A model generated the notes under the pieces. That model made no database searches and was not told the DNA's origin. It saw only the letters and a program-made list of their open reading frames with translations. Shown piece by piece: positions 14,552 through 20,297 of a stretch of DNA of 64,000 nt. Positions within the stretch are counted from its first letter, which is position 1; each line of letters begins with the position of its first letter. Made by a program: the position numbers and the translations under genes. The stretch covers positions 124,001 to 188,000 of the forward strand of contig NZ_BCAG01000003.1 in the NCBI RefSeq assembly GCF_001293685.1. Direction: 5' to 3'. The DNA is from Desulfatitalea tepidiphila (GTDB lineage Bacteria > Desulfobacterota > Desulfobacteria > Desulfobacterales > Desulfosarcinaceae).

Positions 14552-16453
14552 ATGACTTTTTCCCAACGAAATATCTTACTGAACCATTTCTTTTTTTTGT
14601 CCTACCTGGCGCTGCTGCTGGTAGCGGCCCCTGACTTGAAGCATACGCTTTTTTTCACAGGCCTGCCGGTGGCAACTTATGTAATTGCCGTCTATCTGAG
14701 CTATGGATTCATCTACTTGCTTCCCTCTCTGGTGATCACCAAGGTCGCTCACCGTATCCTCAATTGGCGTCAGCACGGACACGACCTGTCACCCGGTGCG
14801 GCAGGGGTTCTGTATGCGATCGCCATCGCACTGACAGCGGGCAGCCTGATTTTCCTGTTTATCGATGCCAGCATCTTCAAGATTTTCGGATTTCATATCA
14901 ACGGCTTTGTCTGGAATCTGGTCACAACCCCCGGCGGCATCGAATCCATGGGCAGCGATCGTGTCACCGTGCTTCTATTTGTATCGGCCATACTCGGATT
15001 GATCCTCACGCAAATGCTCCTGCTATGGGGCGTGTATTACATCTCAACCCAAAGGCGTTTTGGCTGGATTCTCCAGCCGCGCAAACGATATCGATACCTC
15101 CTGCTTCTCTTTTTCCTGTTTGCGGCCGGAGAGCGGGTGATATACGGTGTCAGCAACCTGCAAGGTTACAGTCCGGTATTGATTTCGTCCCAAGCTTTTC
15201 CCGGATACATTCCCTTTACTTTCGGGAGCCTGGCTCGAAAATTTGGCGCCAAATCTCATTCCGGAAATGAAGTAAATCTCAAACTCGGTAAGGGCGCACT
15301 GAATTATCCCATATCGCACCTGGAAATCCAACCGCCCGAACGGCCAATGAATATCGTTTGGCTGGTCGCCGAATCCTGGCGTTGGGACATGCTCGACCCC
15401 GAAATCACCCCCGCAACCTGGCGATTCGCCCAGCGGTCCCACCTGTTTCGCAAGCATTACAGCGGCGGCAACTCCACCAGGATGGGCATGTTTTCCATGT
15501 TTTACGGACTTTACGGGCCCTACTGGTTTGATTTCCTGAATGCCCGACGCGGGCCGGTTCTCATGGATGTGCTACGGCAGCAGAATTATCAGATGAGCAT
15601 GTACACAAGTGCCAAATTTACTTATCCGGAATTCGACAAAACTATTTTTGCATCCATTGAACGCGATCTCCTGCATGAAAACGATGAAGGCCCGGGCTGG
15701 CAAAGAGACCGAAATAACGTGTCCGATCTTCTGAACTTTATCCGGCAGCGCGACCAAACGCGCCCCTTCATGACCTTTATGTTTTTCGAGTCGCCCCACG
15801 CCAGGTATTATTTTCCGGAGGACAGCATTCTGCGGGAAGATTATCTCAAGGATTTCAATTACGTCACCATGGATCTCGATCAAGATGTTCAGTCGATCAA
15901 AAATCGTTATATCAACTCGTGCCACCATCTCGACAGCCAGTTTGCCAGGATATTAGGGTTTCTGGAAAAGGAAGATCTTTTACAGAAGACGATTGTCATT
16001 ATCACCGGCGACCATGGCGAAGAATTCATGGAAAAGGGCAGGTGGGGGCACGGGTCGTCCTTTGTCGAAGAACAAATCAGAGTTCCCCTAATCCTTTGGA
16101 TCCCAGGAACCGGCCAAGACCAGACGGATCAGATGACCAGTCATCTGGATATTGCCCCCACAATATTGGCCCGCCTGGGCGTTAATAATCCTCCGGCGGA
16201 CTATTCGCTCGGCCACGATCTATTGAGTGGACAGCCGCGGATATTCACTGTTGTGAGTGATTGGTCGCGCATTTGTTACGTGGACTCCCGTTATAAGAAA
16301 TCGATTCCACTGAAGGCGGCAGGTGCCTTCAAGAACGAACTGAGTACTCAAAACGATGCTGCCGTTCAAAATGATGGCCCCTTTATAAAAACACACCAAA
16401 AAGAGCTGATTGAGTTGATGCACGCGCTGAAAAGGTTCAAGCGGCCGGTGTAA
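14552..16453 (+). CDS. membrane sulfatase-family protein
   Basis: The 633-residue protein has about five N-terminal membrane spans (1-220) and a periplasmic alkaline-phosphatase-fold domain (about 265-600). The domain has IVWLVAESWRWDML with an expected metal-binding Glu, SGGNSTRMGMFS with a possible nucleophile Ser/Thr, and the metal motif TGDHGEEFMEKGRWGHG. Relatives include sulfatases, lipoteichoic acid synthases, phosphoethanolamine transferases and YejM-like proteins. The location suggests phospho-group transfer to, or control of, lipid A. The gene starts two bases after the ArnT-like stop. Confidence 0.85.
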   Translation: MTFSQRNILLNHFFFLSYLALLLVAAPDLKHTLFFTGLPVATYVIAVYLSYGFIYLLPSLVITKVAHRILNWRQHGHDLSPGAAGVLYAIAIALTAGSLIFLFIDASIFKIFGFHINGFVWNLVTTPGGIESMGSDRVTVLLFVSAILGLILTQMLLLWGVYYISTQRRFGWILQPRKRYRYLLLLFFLFAAGERVIYGVSNLQGYSPVLISSQAFPGYIPFTFGSLARKFGAKSHSGNEVNLKLGKGALNYPISHLEIQPPERPMNIVWLVAESWRWDMLDPEITPATWRFAQRSHLFRKHYSGGNSTRMGMFSMFYGLYGPYWFDFLNARRGPVLMDVLRQQNYQMSMYTSAKFTYPEFDKTIFASIERDLLHENDEGPGWQRDRNNVSDLLNFIRQRDQTRPFMTFMFFESPHARYYFPEDSILREDYLKDFNYVTMDLDQDVQSIKNRYINSCHHLDSQFARILGFLEKEDLLQKTIVIITGDHGEEFMEKGRWGHGSSFVEEQIRVPLILWIPGTGQDQTDQMTSHLDIAPTILARLGVNNPPADYSLGHDLLSGQPRIFTVVSDWSRICYVDSRYKKSIPLKAAGAFKNELSTQNDAAVQNDGPFIKTHQKELIELMHALKRFKRPV

Positions 16454-16693
16454 CCTTCCTTTGAATCAAACGTTATAGGTACAACGACAATACCAACCTC
16501 TTGCCAGTCTGTCCGGCAGGATATGCGCGAAACTTCCTTTTGATCGATCGTCGGATGATGGCTGCTGCTTGCGGCAACATTGATATCGGCACCTTTCGTT
16601 GATGGTGCCGCCGAGCGGAAAGAAAGTTGTGAACATTCCGCTGAACATGATTTGCAGAACCGAGTCATAGCATTTGCGAAAAGGAGGCAATTC

Positions 16694-17761
16694 ATGAAAA
16701 AATCATTTAAGGTCGGTTGCTTGTCCATTTTGCTGATCACATCTGGCGCATTTCTACTTCATGCCGCTGGCAAACCCACGGTGGCAAACGATCTGGAAAA
16801 ACTGGGCATGCACCTTTACAAGGACAAGAACCTGTCGCTCAATCAGAATCAATCCTGTCAGACCTGCCACCACCCCCTGGCCGGTTTCGCCGACCGCTCC
16901 AATTTTCTGCATCCCTACGACAAGGTGGTTTCCCTTGGATCGGACGGGGTGAGCCTGGGTGGACGCAATGCCCCCACGTCGGCCTATGCCTGCTTCAGCC
17001 CCATCCGTTATCAGGATGAGACGACTGGGGAATGGTTCGGCGGCATGTTCTGGGACGGACGGGCCACCGGTGAAACCTTGGGCGACCCGCTGGCCGAGCA
17101 GGCCCAGGGGCCGCCGCTGAATCCGGTGGAGATGGCCATGCCCAGCATCGATGCCATCATGACCGTCATCGAGGCATCGACCTACTACCCATTGTGGAAA
17201 AAGGTCTATGGCCCGATTACGGATCAAGAGGTCGCTTGGGTGAATTTCGCCGATGCCGTGGCCGCTTACGAGCGTTCGGCGGACGTGACCAAATTCAACT
17301 CCAAATTCGACGTGGCACCGGGGCAGTTTACGGGCGCCGAAAACAGAGGCTATGTGCTTTTCCAAACCAATTGTGCCTCCTGCCATTCCGCCACGCCCAT
17401 GTACGCGGCGCCAGAGGCCCTGTTCACCACCTACGGCTATGCCAATATCGGCGTGCCGGCCAATACCGCTGTCCCTTCACCGGATCTGGGACTTGGGGGA
17501 GAGCTTGGCGATACAAGCCAGAACGGAAAATTCAAGATTCCTACCCTGCGCAACATTGCCGTGACCGCGCCATATTCTCACAACGGCGGGTTCCCGACGC
17601 TTTATGACATGGTCTCCTTTATCAACGACAGAAGTGGATTCGGGGCTCCGGATGTTTCCGAAAACGTAGTTGATGGGACGGTGATCGGCGACTTGGGATT
17701 GTCAGAAGAAGACATCGCCGACTTGATCGCCTTTTTGAATACGTTGACTGATGATTATTAG
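16694..17761 (+). CDS. di-heme cytochrome c peroxidase
   Basis: The 355-residue protein has a signal peptide (about 1-25) and two c-type heme sites, C55QTCH59 and C-A-S-C-H near 227-231. It matches the bacterial CcpA/MauG family: LGMHLYKDKNLS near the start, FWDGRATGETLGDPL in the middle, and IPTLRNIAVTAPYSHNGGFPTL near the end. It should reduce hydrogen peroxide in the periplasm using electrons from a small cytochrome. AAGGAGG lies just before the ATG. It is a single-gene unit with a strong terminator behind it. Confidence 0.93.
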   Translation: MKKSFKVGCLSILLITSGAFLLHAAGKPTVANDLEKLGMHLYKDKNLSLNQNQSCQTCHHPLAGFADRSNFLHPYDKVVSLGSDGVSLGGRNAPTSAYACFSPIRYQDETTGEWFGGMFWDGRATGETLGDPLAEQAQGPPLNPVEMAMPSIDAIMTVIEASTYYPLWKKVYGPITDQEVAWVNFADAVAAYERSADVTKFNSKFDVAPGQFTGAENRGYVLFQTNCASCHSATPMYAAPEALFTTYGYANIGVPANTAVPSPDLGLGGELGDTSQNGKFKIPTLRNIAVTAPYSHNGGFPTLYDMVSFINDRSGFGAPDVSENVVDGTVIGDLGLSEEDIADLIAFLNTLTDDY

Positions 17762-17820: not shown

Positions 17821-17852
17821 GGTGGGGAGGTTCGCATCTCCCCACCATTTTT
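17821..17852 (+). terminator. rho-independent terminator after the peroxidase gene
   Basis: GGTGGGGAG (17821-17829) pairs perfectly with CTCCCCACC (17838-17846) around an 8-base loop, followed by ATTTTT. It lies 60 bases after the peroxidase stop and separates that gene from the sigma factor unit. Confidence 0.88.
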
Positions 17853-17953: not shown

Positions 17954-18478
17954 GTGGATACACTCCACTTATGTTCGAATACGGCTTTTGGTAGTATTTC
18001 CGTGGAAACATACGAGCACTTTTATACTGAAAACAAGGTACGACTGATGGCCTACCTGATGCGGTTGACCGGGGACGCCCAGCTGTCCCTGGATCTCATG
18101 CAGGAAAGCTTTACGCGCTACCTGGCCGGATACGGGCGCAATGGCAACAACCGGCCCCTGCTGTTTACCATCGCCCGCAATGCTGCCTTGGATGCCCTTC
18201 GCAGGCACCGAGAAGAGCCGTCGGCAGATTGTGAAAGTGAGGCATCGGGCTTGGACCCGGAATGCCGGTGTATCGCAAAGGAGGCGGTCGACCGGATGTT
18301 CGCCGCGATCCGACGGCTCGACCCACTCGATCGGGAGTTGATCAGCCTGGTGGCGACCGAAGCGTTTTCCTACAAAGCGATCGGCAAGCTCCTCGACATC
18401 AGCGAGGGAAACGTGAAAATAAGGGTCCACCGGGCGCGCCTCAGACTCCGGTCGATCCTTGCCGATGGAGACAAGTGA
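17954..18478 (+). CDS. ECF-type RNA polymerase sigma factor
   Basis: The protein is about 174 residues. Region 2 spans about 20-90, with LMQESFTRYLAG and NRPLLFTIARNAALDALRR, and region 4 spans about 115-170, with LDPLDRELISLVATEAFSYKAIGKLLDISEGNVKIRVHRAR split over its helices. The start is uncertain: GTG 17954 gives the longest form and GTG 18002 also fits. Its stop shares a base with the next gene's ATG. ECF factors are usually held by a membrane anti-sigma factor encoded next door, which matches the following gene. Confidence 0.88.
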   Translation: MDTLHLCSNTAFGSISVETYEHFYTENKVRLMAYLMRLTGDAQLSLDLMQESFTRYLAGYGRNGNNRPLLFTIARNAALDALRRHREEPSADCESEASGLDPECRCIAKEAVDRMFAAIRRLDPLDRELISLVATEAFSYKAIGKLLDISEGNVKIRVHRARLRLRSILADGDK

Positions 18479-19041
18479 TGGATTTTCTTGCCAGCATGTA
18501 CATCGATAACGAGATGAATCTGGACGAAAAGCGGCGCTTCGTCGAAAGGGTCCGCGCCGATAACGAGTTCTGCGCGCTTACCCTTTCGCTGCTCGAACAG
18601 GAAAAATTGCTTCGGGAGCCGCTGATCCCGGCCGAACCGGTCCTCGAAAAAAATTGGCATCCTCCGTTGCGCCGCGTCGTATCTCGGCTGCTCAAACCCA
18701 TTGCCCTTGTCGCGGCCGGCTTTGCCGCGGCGATGCTGCTGTTTTCGACCCATCCCGCCGGCCCTGAGGCGTTGAAGGGCAGCAAGCGGTTCGTATTATT
18801 TGAGCCGGCAGCGGATCGGGTGGAGCTGGCGGGTTCATTCACCGGCTGGCAACGATTGGCCATGCGACGCATCGGTGACAGCGGCTACTGGGAGCTGAAC
18901 CTCGCCATCCCTTGGGGCGAGCACCGCTTCGTTTATATCCTCGACGGCCACCGCCGCATGGCGGACCCCACCCTGCTCGCCAGTGAAAAAGATGATTTTG
19001 GCGGGGAAAACTCCATTCTGCGCATGGAGGAACGCATATGA
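18478..19041 (+). CDS. anti-sigma-like membrane protein with C-terminal CBM48-like domain
   Basis: The 187-residue protein has a cytoplasmic helical region (1-65; starts MDFLASMYIDNEMNLDEKRRF, typical of anti-sigma N-termini), one membrane span (about 73-92), and a C-terminal domain (about 103-187). That domain looks like the glycogen-binding/isoamylase N-terminal fold: VELAGSFTGW, then YWELNLAIPWGEHRFVYILDG, then ADPT. The expected topology places the carbohydrate-binding-like domain outside the membrane. I infer that ligand binding outside could free the sigma factor. No zinc-binding HxxxCxxC is present. It overlaps both neighbours. Confidence 0.75.
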   Translation: MDFLASMYIDNEMNLDEKRRFVERVRADNEFCALTLSLLEQEKLLREPLIPAEPVLEKNWHPPLRRVVSRLLKPIALVAAGFAAAMLLFSTHPAGPEALKGSKRFVLFEPAADRVELAGSFTGWQRLAMRRIGDSGYWELNLAIPWGEHRFVYILDGHRRMADPTLLASEKDDFGGENSILRMEERI

Positions 19042-19358
19042 GACAATTGTTGCTGACGGTTGGCTGCGTGCTGCTCATGAGCGGCTGTGCCGCGCACTAC
19101 TACGAGGTCGAAGAAAATGTGTTGACCCTGTACCTGGACAAGCCGGGTGCTTCCAAAGTGTACTGGGCCTGCAGCCTGGACGGATTCCAAACCCATGAAG
19201 TATCCAAGGTGGAGGGACGGTGGACCATCGCATTGCCGGCCGTTGCACCGTTTCGATACTTCTACATTGTGGACGGACAAATCTATACGCCCTCCTGCCG
19301 ACTGCGCGAGAAAGACGATTTCGGATTTGAAAACTGCATTTTCGATCCACAGATGTAA
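19038..19358 (+). CDS. lipoprotein with CBM48-like domain
   Basis: The 106-residue protein has a lipoprotein signal with LMSGC, giving an acylated Cys at residue 17. The rest resembles the outer domain of the preceding protein: VLTLYLDKPGASKVYWACSLDGF, then WTIALPA, then FRYFYIVDGQIYTPS, ending in EKDDFGFENCIF against EKDDFGGENSIL in the neighbour. The two domains therefore probably arose by duplication. It overlaps the previous gene by four bases. It may present or pass a ligand, or a signal, to the membrane protein. Confidence 0.75.
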   Translation: MRQLLLTVGCVLLMSGCAAHYYEVEENVLTLYLDKPGASKVYWACSLDGFQTHEVSKVEGRWTIALPAVAPFRYFYIVDGQIYTPSCRLREKDDFGFENCIFDPQM

Positions 19359-19418
19359 CTTTTTCCCCTCAGGGTAGTTCTAATGGCATACGATCAGTTA
19401 CTTCTGGAAGGAGGCGGT

Positions 19419-20297
19419 ATGAAAAAAAATTTACTCATTGCCTTGTTGTTGTCCTGCTTCACAACGTTGGCCATTGCCGAAGAAAACCAGGGGTTCTCTC
19501 AGCAGGCCATGCAAAGCATCGAGCAGCAGGCACGGGAAATGAACGCCTACGGTGTGCCCGAGGCTAAAGCCCGGCAGATGCTGACCCAAATGGTTCAAAA
19601 CCGCTATGAGAGCCGTATTATGAATCAGGCGCGGCAAGAAGTCGTCAACGCCGCAAAGGCGGGACTGCCCACCGAACCGGTAATGAACAAGGCACTGGAA
19701 GGCATTGCCAAGAAAGCCAGTCCTCAGGAGGTCGTCGCGGCCATGCAGGCTGTGCGTAGTCGCTACGCCCAAGCCGATCAGTTGGCCAGATCGCTGTCCA
19801 GGGATCCCAAGAACATCGGTCAGATGACGCACGCCCTGGCCGACAGCTTGGCCGCGGGGATGAGATTTTCGGAGTTGGAAGCGGTGAAAAGCCAACTGCA
19901 AACCCGGCAACAGCAGCAAACGCAGAACCAGGCTCAAAACGAGGCGCTGGCCTTACAGACCATGCAGACCGTGCGCGCCATGGCCCGGCTGGGTATCCGC
20001 TCCAATGATGTGGCCGACACCATTTGCCAGGCCCTGAGAAACCAATATACGGAAAGGCAGATGGAGCAGATGCGCCACCAGGTGGCCGAACAGTCTCACC
20101 AAATGTCGCGACAGCAGATGGCCGATCAATTCGGCACCGGCCGCAAAGGCAGTGATGCCGGCCAAGGCGGCATGGGCGGTGGTTCCGGAGCGGGGGCAGG
20201 AGGATCCGGTGGTGGAGGATCCGGTGGTGGTGGCTCTGGTGGCGGTGGCGGTGGCGGTGGCGGAGGTTCCGGAGGAGGCGGCGGGGGCGGCAGATAA
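19419..20297 (+). CDS. secreted Gln-rich protein with Gly/Ser tail
   Basis: The 292-residue protein has a signal peptide (about 1-20, cut after AIA) and a helical, Gln- and Met-rich body (about 21-250) of repeated short helices such as GVPEAKARQMLTQMV and GIRSNDVADTICQALRNQY. A tail of about 40 residues is almost entirely Gly and Ser. It belongs to no family I recognise. The ATG at 19419 follows GGAAGGAGGCGG. Position and direction suggest it is a target or structural output of the sigma-factor unit. The tail could be a flexible anchor or an aggregation-prone segment. Confidence 0.7.
   Translation: MKKNLLIALLLSCFTTLAIAEENQGFSQQAMQSIEQQAREMNAYGVPEAKARQMLTQMVQNRYESRIMNQARQEVVNAAKAGLPTEPVMNKALEGIAKKASPQEVVAAMQAVRSRYAQADQLARSLSRDPKNIGQMTHALADSLAAGMRFSELEAVKSQLQTRQQQQTQNQAQNEALALQTMQTVRAMARLGIRSNDVADTICQALRNQYTERQMEQMRHQVAEQSHQMSRQQMADQFGTGRKGSDAGQGGMGGGSGAGAGGSGGGGSGGGGSGGGGGGGGGGSGGGGGGGR
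20185..20294 (+). repeat. GGN-rich low-complexity tract
   Basis: About 110 bases of repeated GGT/GGC/GGA/TCC codons encode the Gly/Ser tail of the preceding gene. Such a tract is prone to length change by slippage. Confidence 0.7.

Follow-up and report, generated by a model that had tools for sequence, protein, structure and literature searches.

A predicted feedback ECF sigma unit with a CBM48-fold putative anti-sigma factor and Gly-rich exported proteins in Desulfatitalea tepidiphila and other Desulfobacterota

The 64,000-nucleotide stretch of Desulfatitalea tepidiphila DNA analysed here (contig NZ_BCAG01000003.1 of assembly GCF_001293685.1, positions 124,001 to 188,000; hereafter the window) carries four densely packed genes, all on the + strand, for an extracytoplasmic function (ECF) sigma factor (SIG), a putative membrane anti-sigma factor (ANT), a lipoprotein (LIP) and an exported, Gly-tailed protein (GLY; Table 1). 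ANT overlaps SIG by 1 base (TGATG) and LIP overlaps ANT by 4 bases (ATGA), confirming the tight, same-direction arrangement described in a first-pass annotation of this DNA. Gene content, gene order, predicted folds, a promoter motif and the genes behind that motif, all of which are sequence-based, suggest that these genes probably constitute a feedback ECF sigma unit, an envelope-signalling loop whose output would be exported, often Gly-rich proteins.

SIG matches Sigma70_r2 (PF04542, E 2.6e-9) and Sigma70_r4_2 (PF08281, E 4.4e-12), and no sigma-70 region 1 or 3 family was found among its Pfam matches to E 1. The first-pass annotation began the gene at 17954; its relatives start V-E-S-Y, V-D-S-Y or V-E-N-F, and the equivalent V-E-T-Y of the window lies at a GTG codon at 18002. 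Because the N-termini of the relatives align there, GTG 18002 is most likely the true start, and 17954 merely opens the longest frame.

ANT matches the Pfam families AMPK1_CBM (E 1.2e-7; 32.3 bits against a curated cut-off of 26.8) and CBM_48 (E 4.3e-6), each above cut-off. Its structure model (predicted local distance difference test score, pLDDT, 85.8; predicted template modelling score, pTM, 0.50, so that the relative arrangement of domains is not predicted) comprises three N-terminal helices, a long helix of 27 residues (64–90), which we read as a membrane span, and a beta-sandwich. In a fold search with residues 97–187 only, the outer domain matched the glycogen-binding domain of AMPK beta1 with Z 13.6 and 1.4 Å over 81 residues; as modelled, it has the AMPK-beta/CBM48 fold. 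Two more AMPK1_CBM proteins are encoded elsewhere in the genome (L001 on C7 and L002 on C6), with no sigma gene in the 3.2 kb around each.

The third gene has a less obvious affiliation. The window copy of LIP has no CBM match in Pfam, and among 24 relatives a weak CBM_48 match appears in four (best E 8.1e-4), short of the profile cut-off. A profile-profile alignment of the LIP and ANT domains gave a probability of 98.8 and E 1.2e-16, and on profile comparison only the LIP domain is homologous to the ANT outer domain. The ending EKDDFG-EN that the first-pass annotation noted in both proteins is present, but it was set aside as a special duplication signature: AMPK1_CBM proteins in general end in much this way, so it is weak evidence. 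Three Cys are invariant in the 24 LIP relatives, namely the lipobox Cys and two others that may pair as a disulfide. In E. coli, the residue after the lipobox Cys governs sorting, and lipoproteins without Asp there go to the outer membrane; since none of the 24 relatives has Asp directly after the lipobox Cys, this rule suggests that LIP resides in the outer membrane.

GLY begins with a hydrophobic leader and ends in a tail of 49 residues, 36 of them Gly and 6 Ser; modelled without the tail, it is all-helical (pLDDT 93.6, pTM 0.85). No Pfam family was matched by more than four of 65 members (best E 6.8e-4), and fold comparison gave no clear relative, the best hit being a designed nanocage (Z 8.1 at 10.9 Å), followed by designed helical repeats. 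Profile hits among solved structures fell mostly on the Gly tail (e.g., linkers) and were not accepted as relatives. The best-conserved stretch is K-x-x-E-G-x-x-K. A Gly tail (at least 15 Gly in the final 50 residues) is kept in 69 of 72 complete relatives, and 60 of the 72 have Lys, Arg or His within the final three residues. The protein had been described as Gln-rich and secreted with a Gly/Ser tail: the tail holds across the family, and the Gln content of the window copy (15.2%) is the highest of 65 members, against a median of 7.5%, and is thus peculiar to this copy.

The arrangement is widely conserved. Using one peptide pattern, 180 loci were confirmed, and the best 80 of these were named and compared; some of the 26 loci from a class sample duplicate DNA among the 80 (e.g., L034 and L072), and the two sets were pooled only for the profile scan of the loci and for the promoter-matrix scan. 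All four genes were recovered by profile in 75 of the 80 named loci, in the order SIG-ANT-LIP-GLY in 70; the five loci without all four are L079, L082, L085, L119 and L120, with the contig ending at L082 and L120. The 80 loci come from Desulfobacterales, Desulfobulbaceae, Desulfuromonadaceae, Syntrophaceae and other deltaproteobacteria. Within the class, 27 of 192 genomes (D. tepidiphila included; one copy truncated) hold an ANT relative at E <1e-27. In a phylum sample of 297 genomes, full-length ANT (E <1e-60) was found in 15, 11 of them outside the class, and GLY (E <1e-30) in 14 of these 15 and in no other genome; the fifteenth (G454) has its ANT at the end of a contig. The gene order is thus kept far beyond close relatives and the outer domains are CBM48-like, the two points on which the first-pass annotation had staked its reading beforehand, and its proposal that an ECF sigma factor and an anti-sigma factor form a unit with outer domains of CBM48 fold is supported by the Pfam, fold and profile matches given above.

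The identity of ANT as an anti-sigma factor requires separate consideration. Its N-domain found no credible match among solved structures (a single hit, E 1.8), and zf-HC2 matches it only weakly, in 6 of 28 members and at E 0.01 at best; this want of a sequence match is what would favour ANT being a membrane protein that merely neighbours a sigma gene. In the opposite direction, ANT follows SIG in 80 of 80 named loci by profile, the model combines N-terminal helices with a presumed membrane span, and distant counterparts carry a zf-HC2 N-domain, which by analogy supports the identity of ANT as an anti-sigma factor. Class I anti-sigma domains without the zinc motif exist (PMC7406223). We regard the neighbour-only explanation as very improbable.

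A promoter motif links the unit to its predicted targets. Upstream of the first gene, the dyad GTAAC-N16-CGTT occurs in 72 of 79 units (82 loci were prepared and 3 dropped for too little upstream DNA), against 6 of 79 for the best dyad in shuffled regions, the shuffles preserving base content only. The consensus is TGTAACCTTTT, then CGTTATA. In many SIG-first loci the CGTT ends 11 bases 5' of the first aligned codon, and the mRNA would therefore have little or no leader. A position weight matrix (PWM) was trained on 70 distinct dyad-picked sites, so that hits before SIG are not independent of it, those before GLY and the extra sites being independent. It gave 205 hits above 16 in the 1.09 Mb of 106 loci (part of it duplicate DNA) and 0 in the same DNA read backwards. 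In 47 of 70 canonical loci a second, untrained site lies 5' of GLY, which therefore looks, from its sequence context, like a sigma target in its own right; the LIP stop codon falls within the TGTAAC in 32 of the 70.

The regulon appears to extend beyond the four genes. Near the unit in the 80 named loci, 33 extra sites score above 18; 27 precede an exported open reading frame (ORF) and 23 an ORF with at least 15% Gly, compared with 306 and 34, respectively, of 1954 random positions in the same loci, a control in which intergenic position is unmatched. Related loci were not thinned for these counts or for those of GLY sites. Many proteins behind the extra sites contain runs of GGNGG or GPGDGTGNG, and others repeat DRLKDGSC. 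Two kinds of small exported repeat protein recur behind the promoter: one with GPGDGTGNxGxGPxDGTG-like repeats (L099:4903-5319, L137:4892-5290 and, on the minus strand, L203, the only one scanned, which has no Pfam match) and one with DQLKDQKKDGSC or RLKDGSC repeats (L207, L053:3963-4292, L143:5007-5327). In L193 and L140:3352-4308 a sigma site is followed by a small Gly-rich protein and then by a leader-bearing DUF2202 protein (E 2e-52); the papers listed in a literature search on DUF2202 or glycine-rich proteins concern other topics, mostly plants. Away from the unit, targets are predicted from PWM score and position; of eight sites scoring at least 23 in the genomes searched, five precede small exported proteins (L196, L202, L203, L204, L218) and one a MauG-like gene (L209). 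A longer promoter pattern gave 32 hits in 20 genomes against 5 backwards, the majority of the 32 at the unit (15 of 30 longer-pattern loci were inspected, and the remaining ones lie at the unit by coordinates). Two loci vary the theme: in L073 (Desulfoprunum benzoelyticum) a single SIG-ANT pair is flanked by two GLY genes, each with a sigma site, and in L054 (G050) the sigma and anti-sigma frames are shortened (75 and 111 residues) beside a full-length GLY with a sigma site.

In D. tepidiphila itself, the sole exact TGTAAC-N16-CGTTA match in the 5.6 Mb genome lies at 16449-16475 of the window and precedes a MauG-like gene; its TAA is the stop codon of a YejM-like gene (14552-16453). A single exact match could be chance, but not easily with such a PWM score in such a position. 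At both sites of the window (16448-16478 and 19353-19383), the -35 box TGTAAC also supplies the stop codon of the gene before it. The MauG-like protein resembles the MauG/MbnH di-haem enzymes in its membership of the CCP_MauG family and its two CxxCH motifs; unlike MbnH, it scores below the cut-off of TIGR04039 (126 bits against 362.85) and is not a member of that family. Relatives at E 1e-40 or better occur in 8 of 31 genomes. Among the window gene and its five closest relatives, four have a same-strand site within 300 bases (27.9, 27.5, 19.9 and 17.0); of the other two, G195 has a weak site (10.1) and G192 one of 19.6 at about 680 bases. Two more distant matches have no upstream site. Simple co-transcription of the MauG-like gene with SIG was considered and is weakened by the terminator-like hairpin between them, which has the longest stem of three such hairpins, a type that is not enriched (3 in the region against a mean of 5.1 in shuffles). 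A second genome of the family (G117) shows the same order of site, shortened MauG-like gene and SIG, with no site before SIG, and a MauG-like gene seems, from this gene order, to have come to lie between promoter and sigma gene in the D. tepidiphila/G117 branch.

Table 1. Features of the unit and its surroundings in the window (positions from the first base of the window).
Feature	Position	Strand	Basis or remark
Sigma promoter TGTAAC-N16-CGTTA	16448..16478	+	TGTAAC 16449-16454; PWM 27.9
MauG-like di-haem cytochrome c gene, predicted target	16694..17761	+	CCP_MauG E 3.3e-34; site upstream, also in relatives
Terminator-like hairpin, 11 pairs	17821..17846	+	Between MauG-like gene and SIG
SIG, ECF sigma factor	18002..18478	+	PF04542 and PF08281 above cut-off; start set by comparison with relatives
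ANT, putative membrane anti-sigma factor	18478..19041	+	Pfam, structure model, fold comparison
ANT, helical N-domain	18478-18615		
ANT, predicted membrane helix	18667-18747		
ANT, CBM48-fold outer domain	18766-19038		
LIP, lipoprotein with domain homologous to that of ANT	19038..19358	+	Alignment of relatives; profile-profile match
Weaker sigma-promoter-like site before GLY	19353..19383	+	PWM 14.1; TGTAAC 19354-19359 includes LIP stop
GLY, exported all-helical protein	19419..20297	+	Gly/Ser tail 20148-20294; model

Several of the promoter results weigh against the proposed loop. The first-pass annotation had anticipated a self-regulated promoter before 17954; such a promoter is found across the family, but here no site lies directly before SIG or 17954 (best local score -1.1), the strong site being 1.5 kb upstream, before the MauG-like gene. 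Because of this gap and the terminator-like hairpin, autoregulation of SIG is doubtful in D. tepidiphila, where its expression may depend on some other route. No further targets are claimed in this genome: the one-mismatch pattern occurs 22 times against 68 backwards, and 21 one-mismatch sites score at most 15.6. Elsewhere, 23 of 70 canonical loci have no above-threshold site before GLY, 6 of the 33 extra sites are not followed by an ORF that the rule used classes as exported, two of the eight distant sites (L217, L237) precede nothing recognised, and the bare TGTAAC-N16-CGTTA pattern gave 40 hits in 26 genomes against 50 in the backwards control.

Weaker matches to GLY trace the system into more distant lineages, in which CBM48 and the helical protein are combined with other sigma and anti-sigma domains. 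In 20 further genomes of the 297, none among the strong 14, GLY matches at E 1.3e-6 to 5e-13; no genome among the 34 with a match has more than one. Of these 20, 19 have a CBM48 anti-sigma-like gene near the weak match and 18 have a sigma gene as well, the exceptions being L317 (at a contig end), without ANT, and L304, without a sigma match; in some distant loci the GLY relative sits between the sigma and anti-sigma genes. No Gly tail is seen in the available frame in 16 of the 20 (L317, which is cut, among them), and in this tailless group the N-domain of the anti-sigma factor is zf-HC2, above cut-off in three of four tested. A second CBM48 protein was seen in L305, L318 and L320 and in the class-sample loci L060-L064, three of which come from Desulfatitalea, the genus of the window; all eight encode Gly-rich-tailed proteins, and L312 has a Gly-rich tail and one CBM48 protein seen. 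The promoter of the main loci (type 1) was sought in the type-2 loci L060-L064 and set aside there, the best score being 13.8, in L060, the only one of the five to exceed 13. A multihaem cytochrome gene follows the unit in three of seven tailless neighbourhoods examined (L302:3959-6742, L303:112-3624, L309:4241-5989).

Tailless relatives of GLY are found beside CBM48 anti-sigma factors, in some cases encoded between the sigma factor and the anti-sigma factor, and GLY therefore likely works with the sensor. A stronger version of this relationship would make GLY the signal or brake itself: by binding the CBM48 domain of either ANT or LIP it would report its own export or placement, so that the loop monitors export of its product. 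This is a real possibility, given the association in 19 of 20 distant loci, the single GLY match per genome and the GLY promoter in two-thirds of canonical loci (47/70), set against a contact between GLY and ANT or LIP that is putative and the absence of GLY at the locus in some genomes (L085, L119). More tentatively, the exported helical protein (the K-x-x-E-G family) and the CBM48 anti-sigma factor might form the core of a Desulfobacterota module, with sigma class, N-domain, lipoprotein and Gly tail exchanged or added by lineage, that controls an extracellular Gly-rich layer, in some species oxidised or cross-linked by a MauG-like enzyme.

What the outer domains bind can be approached through four residues, Trp100, Lys126, Trp133 and Asn150, which we take to be the sugar contacts of AMPK beta1. 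ANT retains Trp100 in 25 of 25 and Asn150 in 24 of 25 proteins, but Lys126 and Trp133 are missing from all 25. The search for aromatic sugar-binding residues suggested by the first-pass annotation thus succeeds at Trp100 and fails at Trp133, and its proposal of a glucan as the anti-sigma ligand finds no support as stated; with two of the four contacts missing, glycan binding by ANT is not claimed, and a protein contact, the alternative it named, is possible for this domain. That an alpha-glucan or other polysaccharide frees the sigma factor by binding ANT directly would suit the fold and family of the domain, the two retained positions and the precedent of C. thermocellum RsgI, an anti-sigma factor reported to carry a carbohydrate-binding sensor (PMC12203970, PMC4711584); the two lost positions and the absence of glycan enzymes among the predicted targets examined make it unlikely.

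LIP differs at these positions: of 24 relatives, 20 carry Phe or Tyr where AMPK beta1 has Trp133, and 23 do so where it has Trp100. In a second lineage (type 2), lipoproteins have Trp at the Trp133 position in 7 of 8, against no aromatic residue (W/Y/F) in 9 accompanying anti-sigma factors, and in a third group, where no second CBM48 protein was seen, the position is aromatic in 10 of 13 zf-HC2-type anti-sigma factors. This pattern suggests that the lipoprotein, where present, took over ligand binding from the anti-sigma factor, with the reservation that the comparison adjoins alignment gaps and the samples are small. A division of labour is likely, in which LIP binds a ligand or GLY while the ANT domain makes a protein contact; a protein contact, or binding of a ligand by LIP, is the stronger option, and glucan binding by ANT the weaker on residue grounds.

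A different reading would have the unit answer oxidative or haem stress, with the MauG-like enzyme as its working output. The MauG-like target in several genomes and the multihaem cytochrome genes behind some tailless units fit such a response; with close MauG relatives confined to the minority of genomes given above and GLY or Gly-rich targets far commoner, we consider it quite improbable.

The feedback loop with exported Gly-rich output, which we prefer, would operate as follows. At rest, inner-membrane ANT would sequester SIG via its helical cytoplasmic domain, and the periplasmic CBM48-fold domain of ANT, together with LIP, probably in the outer membrane, would monitor the condition of the envelope or cell surface. 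SIG would then be freed by a signal, most likely through proteolysis of ANT; other membrane anti-sigma factors release their sigma factors by proteolysis. Free SIG would read TGTAAC-N16-CGTTA promoters, transcribing its own operon in most genomes, GLY from a promoter that begins at the LIP stop codon, and, depending on the species, genes for a MauG-like di-haem enzyme and for further small exported proteins that are Gly-rich or built of repeats. GLY would probably be a partner of the sensor as well as a product. In this scheme it is sequestration, topology, proteolysis, the ligand and the role of GLY that we infer.

The combination of an ECF sigma factor with a membrane anti-sigma factor is well known. 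In the RpoE-RseA-RseB system and class I systems generally, an ECF sigma factor is paired with a membrane anti-sigma factor that has a small helical cytoplasmic domain, and a further envelope protein is encoded in the operon. The present unit appears to share this general plan, and differs from RpoE-RseA-RseB in the CBM48 outer domain, the CBM48-like lipoprotein partner and the predicted exported Gly-rich targets. SigI-RsgI of Clostridium thermocellum differs from it in sigma class, in its Gram-positive host and in its cellulosome-gene targets, and RsgI carries other CBM families. The likeness lies in an anti-sigma factor, putative in the present unit, that bears an outer sensory module, and in autoregulation (PMC6056542); carbohydrate sensing by RsgI is reported as well (PMC12203970, PMC4711584). 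The ANT outer domain is like the glycogen-binding domain of AMPK beta (PF16561/CBM48) in fold and core motif, and unlike it in lacking two of the sugar contacts and in being carried, presumably facing outward, on a putative anti-sigma factor. The present combination was not found described: searches of the open literature returned no account of such a unit, although an ECF group number may already exist, and for CBM48 with anti-sigma factors returned one unrelated metagenome paper only.

These results add to the first-pass annotation a second promoter, further exported Gly-rich targets, a MauG-like target and more distant lineages. The unit is carried by many sulfate-reducing bacteria and their relatives, cultured carriers including Desulfosarcina alkanivorans, D. 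widdelii, Desulfoprunum benzoelyticum and Desulfobacter vibrioformis, and this widespread group of anaerobes thereby gains a predicted sigma regulon with a sharp, directly testable promoter. A glycogen-binding-type fold would be linked to sigma-factor control, GLY represents an exported protein family not covered by Pfam, and the predicted regulon draws attention to exported repeat proteins rich in Gly, of a function not readable from sequence.

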